Shown here: in pieces, positions 15,471 to 26,686 of the stretch | How the letters are laid out: each line of letters begins with the position of its first letter | How positions within the stretch are numbered: the stretch's first letter is position 1 | NCBI GenBank assembly: GCA_018240325.1 | Contig: JAFEFZ010000305.1 | Location: forward strand, 1 to 44,050 | Direction: 5' to 3' | Source: Pseudomonadota bacterium | GTDB lineage: Bacteria; Pseudomonadota; Gammaproteobacteria; Burkholderiales; Burkholderiaceae_C | DNA: 44,050 nucleotides | Notes under the pieces: model-generated | Databases searched by the model: none | What the model saw: the letters and a program-made list of their open reading frames with translations, nothing else | What the model was told of the DNA's origin: nothing | Program-made: the position numbers and the translations under genes

Positions 15471-15545
15471 CCCGCCGTAGTTCAATGGATAGAACGGGCG
15501 CCTCCTAAGCGCCAGATGCAGGTTCGATTCCTGCCGGGGGGGCCA
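15471..15545 (+). tRNA. tRNA-Arg, anticodon CCU
   Basis: The cloverleaf can be drawn by hand: D stem GTTC/GAAC, anticodon stem GGCGC/GCGCC with loop CTCCTAA (anticodon CCT at 15504-15506), T stem GCAGG/CCTGC with loop TTCGATT, and an encoded CCA at 15543-15545. The acceptor arms CCCGCCG and CGGGGGG pair except for one internal G-G mismatch at the fourth pair (positions 4 and 69). The tRNA reads the AGG arginine codon, which is rare in such a genome. It lies alone between tamB and thrH. Confidence 0.93.

Positions 15546-22432: not shown

Positions 22433-22436
<4 letters not shown>
21465..22436 (-). CDS. lepB: Signal peptidase I
   Basis: A 323-residue inner-membrane serine protease that cuts signal peptides from exported proteins. 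Two N-terminal membrane segments (about 5-45 and 100-118) are separated by a cytoplasmic loop. The catalytic serine is Ser 129 in [10 protein letters not shown] and the lysine is Lys 184 in [14 protein letters not shown]; box E is [17 protein letters not shown] near 270. ATG 22436 (or the adjacent ATG 22433) overlaps the lepA stop. The lepA-lepB pair is the common arrangement in proteobacteria. Confidence 0.96.
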
Positions 22437-24241
<1,805 letters not shown>

Positions 24242-24298
24242 GGACGCGGATGCAGTCGCTTGCGCCGGGGCAGCACGGCGCCGCGGTTTCAGCGCGAG

Positions 24299-24652
24299 CT
24301 CAACTCGCGCAGCGATGTGGGGGCGCGCGGCGATGTGAAGGCGCGCAGCGCCGTGCTGGAAGCACAACGGCAACGCCGTTGCGGTGAAGGCTCATGTCGC
24401 GCAGCGATGTGAAGACGCGCAGCGCCGTGCTGGAAGCACAACGGCAACGCCGTTGCGGTGAAGGCTCATATCGCGCAGCGATGTGAAGGCGCGCAGCGTC
24501 GTGCTGGAAGCACAACGGCCATGCCGTTGCGGTGAAGGCTCATATCGCGCAGCGATGTGAAGGCGCGAAGCGCCGTGCTGGAAGCACAACGGCAACGCCG
24601 TTGCGGTGAAGGCTCATATCGCGCAGCGATGTGAAGGCGCGAAGCGCCGTGC
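24299..24652. repeat. Tandem array of a 74-base hairpin-rich repeat
   Basis: Five copies in a row: 24299-24390 (92 bases, with an internal 18-base partial duplication), 24391-24464, 24465-24538, 24539-24612 (each exactly 74) and a partial copy 24613-24652. Each unit read on the minus strand folds into four small hairpins: CAACGGC-GTT-GCCGTTG, TGCT-TCC-AGCA, GGCGC-TGC-GCGCC and ATCGC-TGC-GCGAT. Because 74 is not a multiple of three and the unit lacks stops in several frames, overlapping open frames cross the array; these are by-products. The array begins 57 bases upstream of lepA, in the position of its 5' leader. No other copy is seen in this window. Confidence 0.95.
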
Positions 24653-24659
24653 CGAAACC

Positions 24660-24691
24660 AAAAAAAAGGCACGTCGAAGTGTTGACGTGCC
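24660..24691 (-). terminator. Intrinsic terminator on the minus strand
   Basis: On the minus strand GGCACGTC pairs with GACGTGCC (8 base pairs, loop of 8) and is followed immediately by eight T residues (A8 at 24660-24667 on the plus strand). This is the only textbook intrinsic terminator in the window. It stands between mucD and lepA and separates transcripts arriving from upstream from the lepA leader. Confidence 0.85.
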
Positions 24692-24723
24692 CTCCAACAG
24701 AACGTTTGGCAACTGCTTGTTGG
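24660..24723 (-). ncRNA. Candidate small RNA, about 64 nt
   Basis: A TACAAT box on the minus strand (24730-24735) predicts a start near 24723, and the intrinsic terminator ends the transcript at about 24660. The product would be roughly 64 nt: an unstructured A/C-rich 5' part (AAGCCCAACAAGCAGTTGCC region) followed by the terminator hairpin and U tract, the plan of many Hfq-binding small RNAs. The surrounding bases are much less GC-rich than the genes (29 of 60 in 24661-24720). No known RNA family is recognised. A longer transcript from the box at 24911 is also possible. Confidence 0.45.
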
Positions 24724-24729
24724 GCTTTC

Positions 24730-24735
24730 ATTGTA
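24730..24735 (-). promoter_or_regulatory. -10 box TACAAT before the candidate small RNA
   Basis: CTACAAT on the minus strand, the same motif as at the rnm and EPS-regulator promoters. A weak -35 (CTTGCA, 24752-24757) stands 16 bases upstream. Confidence 0.45.
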
Positions 24736-24910
24736 GTCAAAAGGACCTGGCTGCAAGCCGCGCCAGTGCTTGTTTCCAGGCCGTTGCGCAACGTCTACAG
24801 GAGGATGTTGTCAACAGCTTGTCCACATATCTGGTTACCCATCCAGCCTGCTTCGGATTCGATCCGGAATCGGCGCCTCCAGGGCGCTAAAGCAGTGCAG
24901 GCGAGCGGCG

Positions 24911-24916
24911 ATTCTA
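24911..24916 (-). promoter_or_regulatory. Second -10 box, TAGAAT, in the mucD-lepA gap
   Basis: CTAGAATC on the minus strand matches the boxes before acpP and the EPS genes. Transcription from here would start near 24904 and could run about 245 nt to the terminator at 24660. The stretch between contains small hairpins, for example GCGCC-CTGGA-GGCGC, and no convincing gene. Confidence 0.4.
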
Positions 24917-25102
24917 GCTGGCGGCCCACCCAATCCTCGCCCACAGCCAATCGAAGTAACAGGTCACTAACCCGGCGGCAGGTCGGGGGCAGCGGGCCCA
25001 CGTCGCGTGTGGTGCATCAGATTTCCGCAACATGCAATGACCCGATAGTGAGGTCGGGAACTCGGTCCGGCCAGGCTCGTCGGAGCAACCCCGGCCGCAC
25101 TC

Positions 25103-25151
25103 GCCGCCCGCCGCCCGCCGCCCGCCGCCCGCCGCCCGCCGCCCGCCGCCC
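25103..25151. repeat. Seven tandem copies of the heptamer GCCGCCC
   Basis: A perfect 7 x 7 base array about 100 bases downstream of the mucD stop. Heptamer arrays expand and contract by slippage, so the copy number may differ between isolates. It lies in non-coding sequence, within the 1,011-base gap between lepA and mucD; the rest of the gap between this array and 24917 shows nothing that looks like a gene. Confidence 0.9.
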
Positions 25152-25252
25152 GCAGGCCGCGGGCCGCGGGGCAGCCGCGGCGCCCGAAGCCTCCCGAATT
25201 CCCGCCGCCGCGACCGCGGGCCGGGGCCGACCCGGCTCCTGGCACGAAGCGG

Positions 25253-26686
25253 TCAGCGTTGCGGCCGGATCACCACGAAGTTGACGGCGTCGCCGCGGCG
25301 CACCAGCACGTTCAGCGGCTTGGTCTTGTCGGCGCGCTGCACCAGCTGGCCGAACTGCCGGGCGTCGCTGATCTCGGTGTTGTCCAGCGACAGGATCACG
25401 TCGCCCTCGCGCAGCCCGGCGCGCGCCGCCGGCCCATCGACCGCCTCGACGCGCACGCCGCCCTTCACGCGCAGTTCGCGCTTTTGCGCGTCGCTCAGGT
25501 CGGTGATGCTCAGGCCGAGCGCGTTCTTGACCGGCGCCGGCGCAGCGCCGGAGTCGCTGGCGCGCCGCGCCGGCTTGTCGGCCTCGAATTCGGCCACGGT
25601 GACGCTCAGATCCTTGGTCGCGCCGCGGCGGAACACTTGCAGCGTGACCTTGCTGCCGGGCTTGGTGCTGCCGATCATGCGCGGCAGGTCGCCCGCCTTC
25701 TCGACCGCCTTGCCGTCGACCTTGGTGATGATGTCGCCCGCCTCGATGCCGGCCTTGTCGGCCGGACCGCCGGCCTCGGCGTTCTGCACCAGCGCGCCGA
25801 CGGGCTTGCCCAGGCCGATCGACTCGGCCACTTCCTTGGTCACCGGCGCGATCTGCACGCCGATGCGGCCGCGGATCACCCGCCCGGTGCTGCGCAACTG
25901 CTCCGACACGCGCATCGCGTCGTTGATCGGGATCGCGAAGGCGATGCCCATGTAGCCGCCCGAGCGGCTGAAGATCTGCGAGTTGACGCCCACGACTTCG
26001 CCGCGCAGGTTGAGCAGCGGGCCGCCGGAGTTGCCCGGGTTGATCGCCGCGTCGGTCTGGATGAACGGCAGGTAGTCGCCGGTGTCGCGCCCCTTGGCGC
26101 TGACGATGCCGGCGGTGACGGTGTTCTCGAGCCCGAAGGGCGAGCCGATCGCCACCACCCACTCGCCGACCTTCAGCCGGTCGCTGTCGCCGATTCTCAC
26201 CACCGGCAGCCCGGTGGCTTCGACCTTGACCAGCGCGATGTCGGTGCGCCGGTCGGTGCCGACGATGCGCGCCTTCAGCTCGCGCTTGTCGGTCAGCGTG
26301 ACGATCACCTCGTCGGCGCCCTCGACCACGTGGGCGTTGGTCATCACGTAGCCGTCGGCGCTCAGGATGAAGCCCGAGCCGATGCCGCGCTGCATCGGCT
26401 CGTCGTCGCCGCGCGGGCCGCGGCGCGGCCCCGGCAGCGGGATGCCGAAGCGGCGCAGGAACTCCTCCATGTTCGGATCGACGTCGACGCCGCCCTGGCG
26501 CGCGCGCTCGAGCGTGCGGATGTTGACCACCGCCGGGCCGACGCGCTCGACCAGTTCGGTGAAGTCGGGCAGCGACTGGGCGCGCGCCATCGCCGGCAGC
26601 GCCGACAGCGCGATCAGCAGCCAGGCCGTCAGCAGCAGCATGGCGGCACGGGGCAGGCCGGCCATCGGGGTCGCTCGGGTACGCAT
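25253..26686 (-). CDS. mucD: Periplasmic Do-like serine protease MucD/DegP
   Basis: A 477-residue HtrA-family protease/chaperone of the periplasm. The signal peptide (about residues 1-36) is followed by a trypsin-like domain with His 119 (TNAHVV), Asp 149 (TDIALV) and Ser 220 (GNSGGP), then two PDZ domains (about 265-360 and 395-475). A glycine/proline/arginine segment PGPRRGPRGDDEP sits in the loop before the protease core. It is the fourth gene of the rpoE-rseA-rseB-mucD operon, 51 bases after rseB, with GGAG before ATG 26686. In Pseudomonas MucD degrades misfolded envelope proteins and restrains the sigma-E (AlgU) response; the same role is inferred here. Confidence 0.95.
   Translation of the reverse strand: MRTRATPMAGLPRAAMLLLTAWLLIALSALPAMARAQSLPDFTELVERVGPAVVNIRTLERARQGGVDVDPNMEEFLRRFGIPLPGPRRGPRGDDEPMQRGIGSGFILSADGYVMTNAHVVEGADEVIVTLTDKRELKARIVGTDRRTDIALVKVEATGLPVVRIGDSDRLKVGEWVVAIGSPFGLENTVTAGIVSAKGRDTGDYLPFIQTDAAINPGNSGGPLLNLRGEVVGVNSQIFSRSGGYMGIAFAIPINDAMRVSEQLRSTGRVIRGRIGVQIAPVTKEVAESIGLGKPVGALVQNAEAGGPADKAGIEAGDIITKVDGKAVEKAGDLPRMIGSTKPGSKVTLQVFRRGATKDLSVTVAEFEADKPARRASDSGAAPAPVKNALGLSITDLSDAQKRELRVKGGVRVEAVDGPAARAGLREGDVILSLDNTEISDARQFGQLVQRADKTKPLNVLVRRGDAVNFVVIRPQR

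Follow-up and report, generated by a model that had tools for sequence, protein, structure and literature searches.

A tandem array before lepA in a Burkholderiales genome, probably a local amplification of a dispersed, folded and formerly mobile short repeat

Bacterial MITEs of the Correia, ERIC and RU types are short, non-autonomous elements that insert with target duplication; their terminal inverted repeats are fixed, and their target duplications are short (2–10 bp). Islands that integrate at tRNA genes also restore the end of the gene they enter, but they are large, code for an integrase and use fixed sites. REPs are palindromes of 20–40 bp, most of which are tagged with GTAG or CGTC, and the CGTC-tagged repeats are not associated with transposase genes, according to PMC3733652; some REPs lie close to stop codons (PMC3733652 and PMC12306157), and PMC2817692 gives more than 100 REP copies per genome as the usual number and describes the copies in BIMEs as alternating in orientation.

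Here we describe a tandem array before lepA, each unit of which consists of an element of ~55 nt, called E, and a hairpin of 19 nt. With a probability of about 0.68, this array arose when one member of a Burkholderiales-wide family of short, non-coding and formerly mobile repeats with long target duplications was amplified in tandem on the spot. REPs, BIMEs and REPINs with their RAYTs resemble E in being short, intergenic, folded, dispersed and at times clustered; unlike the REP, which is a single tagged palindrome, E has two distinct arms and a 3 × 3 internal loop, and it differs further from the REP/RAYT system in having long target duplications and in that the loci examined show no association with Y1 transposases. 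The figure of more than 100 REP copies per genome can be set beside at least 24 R1 matches in the genome of the window (E-value ≤ 1) and about 80 copies, by extrapolation, in another genome (G330); as both are lower bounds, the copy numbers may or may not differ. The units of the window, furthermore, are arranged head to tail and all on the same strand (model R1), whereas BIME copies alternate. The CGTC-tagged repeats are similar to E in their reported lack of a transposase association, but they are tagged palindromes, and we know of no such repeats with gene-end duplication. The likeness to MITEs lies in the target duplication, which was seen at 35 of 63 single non-lepA copies of E and at 0 of 14 copies at lepA; the duplications of E, however, are 27–96 nt in alignment, and its inverted arms are locus-specific. 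Also, a gene entered by E would stay whole through a supplied copy of its end, as with the tRNA-gene islands, while E is ~55 nt long, non-coding and present at many genes.

The window, i.e., the whole stretch of 44,050 nt that was analysed, is contig C228 of a 4.18-Mb assembly with a completeness of 98.8%, and the closest name-bearing relatives of its degP gene are Rubrivivax-labelled and other Burkholderiales MAGs. The degP–lepA interval holds a conserved promoter-like/terminator block and the tandem array. Since R1, a model from sixteen lepA-leader units, was trained partly on the window units, its scores for these units in the following list are high by construction.

25253..26686, minus strand: degP/mucD-type serine endopeptidase, the gene upstream of lepA (TIGR02037, 499.3 bits)
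24660..24735, minus strand: conserved block with TACAAT (−10-like), a hairpin, a terminator hairpin and T8 (alignment, motif listing, terminator scan)
24299..24652, minus strand: tandem array of 74-bp units, each an E core with a third hairpin (TRF and model R1)
24580..24659, minus strand: unit 1, the best preserved (R1 98.6 bits, R2 87.5 bits)
24506..24585, minus strand: unit 2 (R1 93 bits)
24432..24511, minus strand: unit 3 (R1 88.4 bits)
24358..24437, minus strand: unit 4 (R1 86.3 bits)
24266..24363, minus strand: unit 5, a degenerate copy that contains an 18-bp duplication (24306–24350; R1 44.5 bits)
24585..24605, minus strand: third hairpin, CAACGGC-GTT-GCCGTTG, repeated at 24511–24531, 24437–24457 and 24363–24383
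22433..24241, minus strand: lepA (elongation factor 4; TIGR01393, 965.7 bits), with the ATG read at 24241

The tandem array that a preliminary description had reported before lepA was recovered both by TRF (24324–24652, period 74, 4.4 copies, 95% matches, 0% indels, score 602) and by R1, which gave four full units and a degenerate fifth. The period of 74 bp stood, but the unit of 92 bases in that description is 74 bp plus a separate 18-bp repeat at 24306–24350 (TRF, period 18). Its distance of 57 bases to lepA is correct (array end at 24299, ATG at 24241), and the array does lie downstream of a terminator-like hairpin with T8, which adjoins it; unit 1 begins directly after T8. The placement in the lepA leader agrees, furthermore, with the promoter-like/terminator block upstream and with a related unit at the same place in some relatives. 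Among the lepA leaders displayed, four full copies were seen in the genome of the window only. None of 4227 Rfam models matched, two chance-level rows (E-values of 1.7 and 2.7) aside, and the tRNA gene at 15471–15542 was the sole match at gathering score inside the window; nor was E described in Rfam or in the accessible text of the literature searched, which included PMC6006769. A promoter scan of 24000–25300 found no sigma-70 consensus. Between degP and the lepA leader, a perfect 7-bp repeat (CGCCGCC, 7.4 copies) was noticed by TRF at 25102–25153.

The 501-nt lepA leader including the terminator has a folding z of −4.23, which none of 100 shuffled sequences equalled, and a single unit has a z of −2.2 to −3.1, as RNA or DNA and on either strand. 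Each unit had been described as four consecutive hairpins; small stems with three-base loops are indeed present, but comparison with relatives favours a single three-way junction, in which a closing stem with a 3 × 3 internal loop bears hp1 and hp2, followed by a third hairpin. The GTGCT/AGCAC hairpin counted as part of the unit forms solely at unit–unit boundaries. In this anatomy, which covariation supports, E is built of a closing stem (GGC/RCC) and an inner stem (GGC/GCC), with the conserved 3 × 3 internal loop (UNC/UGC) between them, and of the arms hp1 and hp2; across the 75 aligned copies of alignment A2, the near-constant GGCUNCGGC and AGCCUGCRCCG bracket the two variable arms. In A2, 95.4% of cells are paired, two-sided changes occur in 15 of 20 pairs, and 166 two-sided cells compare with 41.5 ± 4.9 after shuffling (reached in 0 of 500 shuffles), where the counts lean because the alignment was fitted to a related structure and where kin copies inflate the shuffle controls. 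Shifting the pairing partners abolishes the pairing signal. Among the 16 lepA-leader units, 10 of 25 pairs show two-sided changes, a number reached in 0 of 500 shuffles; further pair types, one of five covariation measures, are not above control. RNAalifold folded these units in much the same way, and its covariation term was small (−0.65). Exact three-base UNC loops close hp1 in 36 and hp2 in 40 of the 75 copies, and GNA loops were found in 0 of 75 in the same sense; the opposite strand would thus carry GNA triloops, which would be unusually stable. In a strand test, A–C exceeded G–U overall; this excess came from two columns, and the balance was reversed once both were set aside. A longer closing stem (columns 2–4 with 114–118) was weakly supported and has been superseded by a later stem assignment.

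The preliminary description proposed that, if the unit were absent elsewhere, the array would be a recent local duplication, but the unit is found elsewhere in its own genome and in other genera. Indeed, the raw array has dispersed matches in its own genome and matches at an E-value ≤ 0.001 in 30 of 61 genomes, its own included, while R1 marks 24 places there at an E-value ≤ 1, five of which are the array, and has matches at an E-value ≤ 0.01 in 27 of 41 genus genomes, again with its own. At an E-value ≤ 1e-4, R2 matched at least 90 of the 250 genomes taken from the family (in 60 of 141 genera) and at least 36 of the 150 taken from the order (in 29 of 92 genera), own genome included in both, and in the class only that genome itself among 143, namely 0 of the 142 others sampled; all these are lower bounds, since 18–32 candidates per genome were scored under strict filters. 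The complete 2.72-Mb genome G330 had 12 copies at an E-value ≤ 0.001 in 400 kb, from which about 80 were extrapolated, and G056 had 23 R2 matches. At lepA, the multiplication to four full copies is a local event. Separately, seven compound repeats in the genome of the window (L003–L009, on contigs C240, C180, C14, C191, C173, C102 and C236) share a 31-nt stretch, identical in six and 97% in one, that comprises hp2 and the closing stem but not hp1; they seem to be a one-arm subtype that was amplified recently.

Gene ends are where many of the dispersed copies of E are found. Among 83 copies, from which the known lepA loci were excluded and in which orthologues were counted separately and genes called mechanically, 43 have a stop codon on the opposite strand no more than 100 nt from their right edge, and 14 have one on the same strand no more than 100 nt from their left edge (p = 1.5e-4). 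One of the 83, at a contig end (L213), is probably one more lepA leader. The neighbouring genes that passed NCBIfam cut-offs included metK, groES, ftsW, murG, argF, ruvC, proB, apaH, pheS, nuoD, homoserine dehydrogenase, glmS and rplT; AlaXM-like and RlmI-like matches fell below the cut-offs, and groEL, nuoC and cytochrome c were assigned by reading the sequences. The orientation of E relative to transcription varies among loci. By eye, a one-arm copy in the genome of the window (L010, around 1501–1547 of contig C240) was also read between two tRNA-Ser gene ends (AAGACCGGTGCAATCG..CCACTCTGCCACGCTTCC), a gene-end duplication as elsewhere but here at an RNA gene.

A direct duplication of the neighbouring gene end (score ≥ 15) flanks 35 of 63 single non-lepA copies, and these 35, not being independent loci, represent at most about 18 sites as read by eye; the other 28 have no such duplication. 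Cross-locus controls scored 9 at the median and 13, 26 and 42 at the 95%, 99% and 99.9% points, where same-gene pairs inflate the tail. In 30 of the 35, the start of the far copy is at most 6 nt away from the edge of the repeat, and the upper length of the duplications, 96 nt, is a floor because the comparison window was 100 nt. These counts come from 77 loci, 9 of them labelled lepA, kept after two duplicate loci, tandem loci and those with short flanks had been left out; the 68 non-lepA loci as scripted became 63 once L278, L279, L280, L282 and L319 had been recognised as lepA leaders. In a first version, from which ten lepA loci, second copies per locus and short-flank loci were excluded, 31 of 52 lay above the 95th percentile of the control of that version. 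The copies in lepA leaders scored 6–13 (control median 9), and 0 of 14 reached the threshold, so that lepA itself gives no sign of insertion.

The edges have a pattern of their own. At 85 loci, which still contain the five lepA leaders just named, the left edge is T-rich, with T at 95% at −1, 53% at −2 and 81% at −3 and −4 against a background of 20%; at the right edge, G stands at +1 in 98% and is mostly followed by A. The outer flanks of 75 copies, furthermore, are complementary at 8.05 of 12 positions versus 6.24, the maximum of 200 cross-locus controls being 6.75. Where this is clearest, the first 10–13 nt of the far copy recur in inverted form on the other side; at many loci the inverted copy is short or missing, and the inverted arms differ by locus.

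The boundary of ftsW and murG offers sites with and without the repeat. For 30 loci viewed, from 39 genomes with a murG match and classified by eye together with a repeat scan allowing two mismatches, 18 are repeat-free, with the ftsW stop overlapping the murG start; four carry an intact repeat (G034, G022, G062 and G036), three a reduced repeat with duplication (G011, G020 and G029), four another insert (G026, G027, G009 and G004), and the genome of the window a remnant-like insert with no second copy. A direct repeat of at least 30 nt is present in 6 of the 30, and the longest in the other 24 is 12–15 nt; G036, whose repeat is present with diverged flanking copies, is among the 24. In the gap of G026 (L330), G009 (L342) and G027 (L347), we noticed a different, GC-rich insert of the type CCCC[CG].CGGGGGGC, which is perhaps another repeat family using gene ends, and in G004 (L351) a further, shorter insert.

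Copies that different genomes carry at one and the same gene have an average stem likeness of 0.833, compared with 0.752 for those at other genes in other genomes and 0.760 within the same genome (label permutation, 0 of 500). Orthologous copies are thus more alike than copies of the same genome, which argues that two-armed copies have not moved recently in the genus; the copies of E are for the most part inherited in place. The groES group is an exception (0.732, below background), and the lepA group, over the whole core, is barely above background (0.736 versus 0.729). Homogenisation of two-armed copies within a genome was not seen; the one-arm compound copies in the genome of the window are near-identical.

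A match to R1 before lepA was read by eye, contig breaks not being allowed for, in 11 of the 41 genus genomes: that of the window, G005, G013, G016, G017, G019, G028, G029, G031, G036 and G062, several of which supplied sequences for R1. A related unit lies behind the T8 run and before lepA at some genus loci and in L050–L053, of which L052 has two, one degenerate, and five lepA leaders of other genera carry it: L278, L279, L280 and L282 with one each, and L319 with two at 74-bp spacing, although TRF reported no array in L319. When R2 was run over 80 degP-relative loci, six matches at an E-value < 1e-6 were obtained, each of them before lepA. The structure of the unit is conserved where it is present; many leaders are without it or have a replacement, that is, a different sequence or nearly nothing. 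In L151 (G061), only 4 nt separate the T8 run from lepA, and the unit is hence dispensable there.

Taken together, E is best explained as a short non-autonomous element that was inserted, long ago at most sites, with unusually long target duplications. At many loci other than lepA, it begins behind a T-rich edge (TTNT) and has a direct copy of the adjacent gene end on either side; the duplicated stretch runs to or past that end and would leave the gene whole. Because the duplication would restore the gene, surviving copies would be those at gene ends, and their location could be explained without any function. As for the movement itself, our guess is that a folded single-strand intermediate might anneal at a T-rich template and then be extended. 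The lepA copy is old and common to several genera, with its duplication either gone or never there. In this species, the unit of E and the 19-nt hairpin was multiplied to four full copies and a remnant, most likely through replication slippage, for which the third hairpin between copies would supply the homology; the copy number of the unit may possibly affect lepA expression. Whether E stands for a new class of mobile element, namely a tiny, folded, non-coding repeat that uses T-rich sites close to gene ends, is order-wide, leaves gene-restoring duplications and depends on machinery other than Y1, is a bolder claim, which we offer tentatively and hold to be somewhat less probable than its negation. 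If this is right, a mobile element has been overlooked in a large group of environmental bacteria, and the mark of its insertion, a long target duplication that restores the gene, fits no mechanism for short bacterial repeats that we know of. This would also explain repeats located exactly at the ends of essential genes and make the search for a mobiliser concrete, and, in Burkholderiales genomes, gene ends present twice and contigs that break at repeats may then be signs of E.

The same data can be read in other ways. The unit might be a functional RNA of the lepA leader, i.e., a stabiliser, a part of an attenuator or a protein site, with the dispersed look-alikes being structures at the 3′-ends of mRNAs or between cistrons. 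Such an RNA would fit with the two-sided changes that relatives show at the lepA position, the unit at the same position in several genera, recurrence beside housekeeping genes (groES, ftsW–murG, rplT–pheS and nuoD), the higher average likeness of orthologous copies and the stop-codon orientation bias (43 versus 14 of 83, p = 1.5e-4). We nonetheless consider it rather unlikely, given that an R1 match precedes lepA in only 11 of the 41 genus genomes, that the 4 nt of L151 make the unit dispensable there, that orientation with respect to transcription varies and that gene-end duplications are unexpected of a cis element. The duplications, on the other hand, might have arisen from slippage or template switching at a pre-existing stable hairpin rather than from insertion. 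By eye, array units elsewhere include the neighbouring gene end with its stop codon (in G056, 145 bp; G288, 157 bp; and G369, 224 bp), and the hairpin could provoke such events; indeed, a tandem duplication of gene end and repeat followed by loss could mimic a target duplication, and no mobiliser was found for the insertion that we prefer. Slippage, however, leaves unexplained the conserved sequence at unrelated genes in many genera, the single copies with a far copy at the edge of the repeat and the repeat-free ftsW–murG sites, and we regard it as an unlikely source. How far these counts carry depends on the material as well, most relatives being assemblies, many of them fragmented, with loci that are not independent and gene starts that were called mechanically.

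Of the three guesses in the preliminary description, that of a mobile REP/BIME-like element comes closest, as the unit does belong to a dispersed structured family; a link to Y1, a tagged palindrome and alternating copies were not seen, and long target duplications occur at other loci. A REP/RAYT or BIME system proper, in which palindromes are spread by a REP-associated tyrosine transposase, would account for a short, folded, intergenic, dispersed and sometimes tandem E, and matches to Y1_Tnp (PF01797) occur in 21 of the 41 genus genomes. The genome of the window (98.8% complete), however, has 0 such matches, and other element-carrying genomes have one in 7 of 12 and none in 5 of 12, G056 among the latter. 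For 29 of the 39 Y1 matches, with flanks searched up to about 1.5 kb and less at contig ends, no E was found nearby, the best E-value being 0.08 and thus nothing falling below 0.05; a RAYT-driven REP was rejected on this ground. As E is also two-armed and has long target duplications, we judge such a system to be very improbable. A purely local lepA minisatellite with no wider family, to which the confinement of the four-full-copy array to one genome among the lepA leaders displayed might point, is refuted by the units of the same kind at other places in this genome and in further genera and is scarcely conceivable.

The upstream block at 24660–24735 is a matter separate from the array. It has a mean column identity of 77% in an alignment of 16 sequences from chosen loci, has no Rfam match, and is kept beyond the genus, in Rubrivivax-type loci and in several labelled Comamonadaceae and Thiomonas. 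The block motif is missing from 25 loci, mostly more distant ones, and a few motif matches fall within genes. In some relatives, 4 to about 40 nt lie between block and lepA, so that lepA would have to be transcribed through the block; with such read-through, the block is a candidate attenuator of lepA or a candidate small RNA with read-through.
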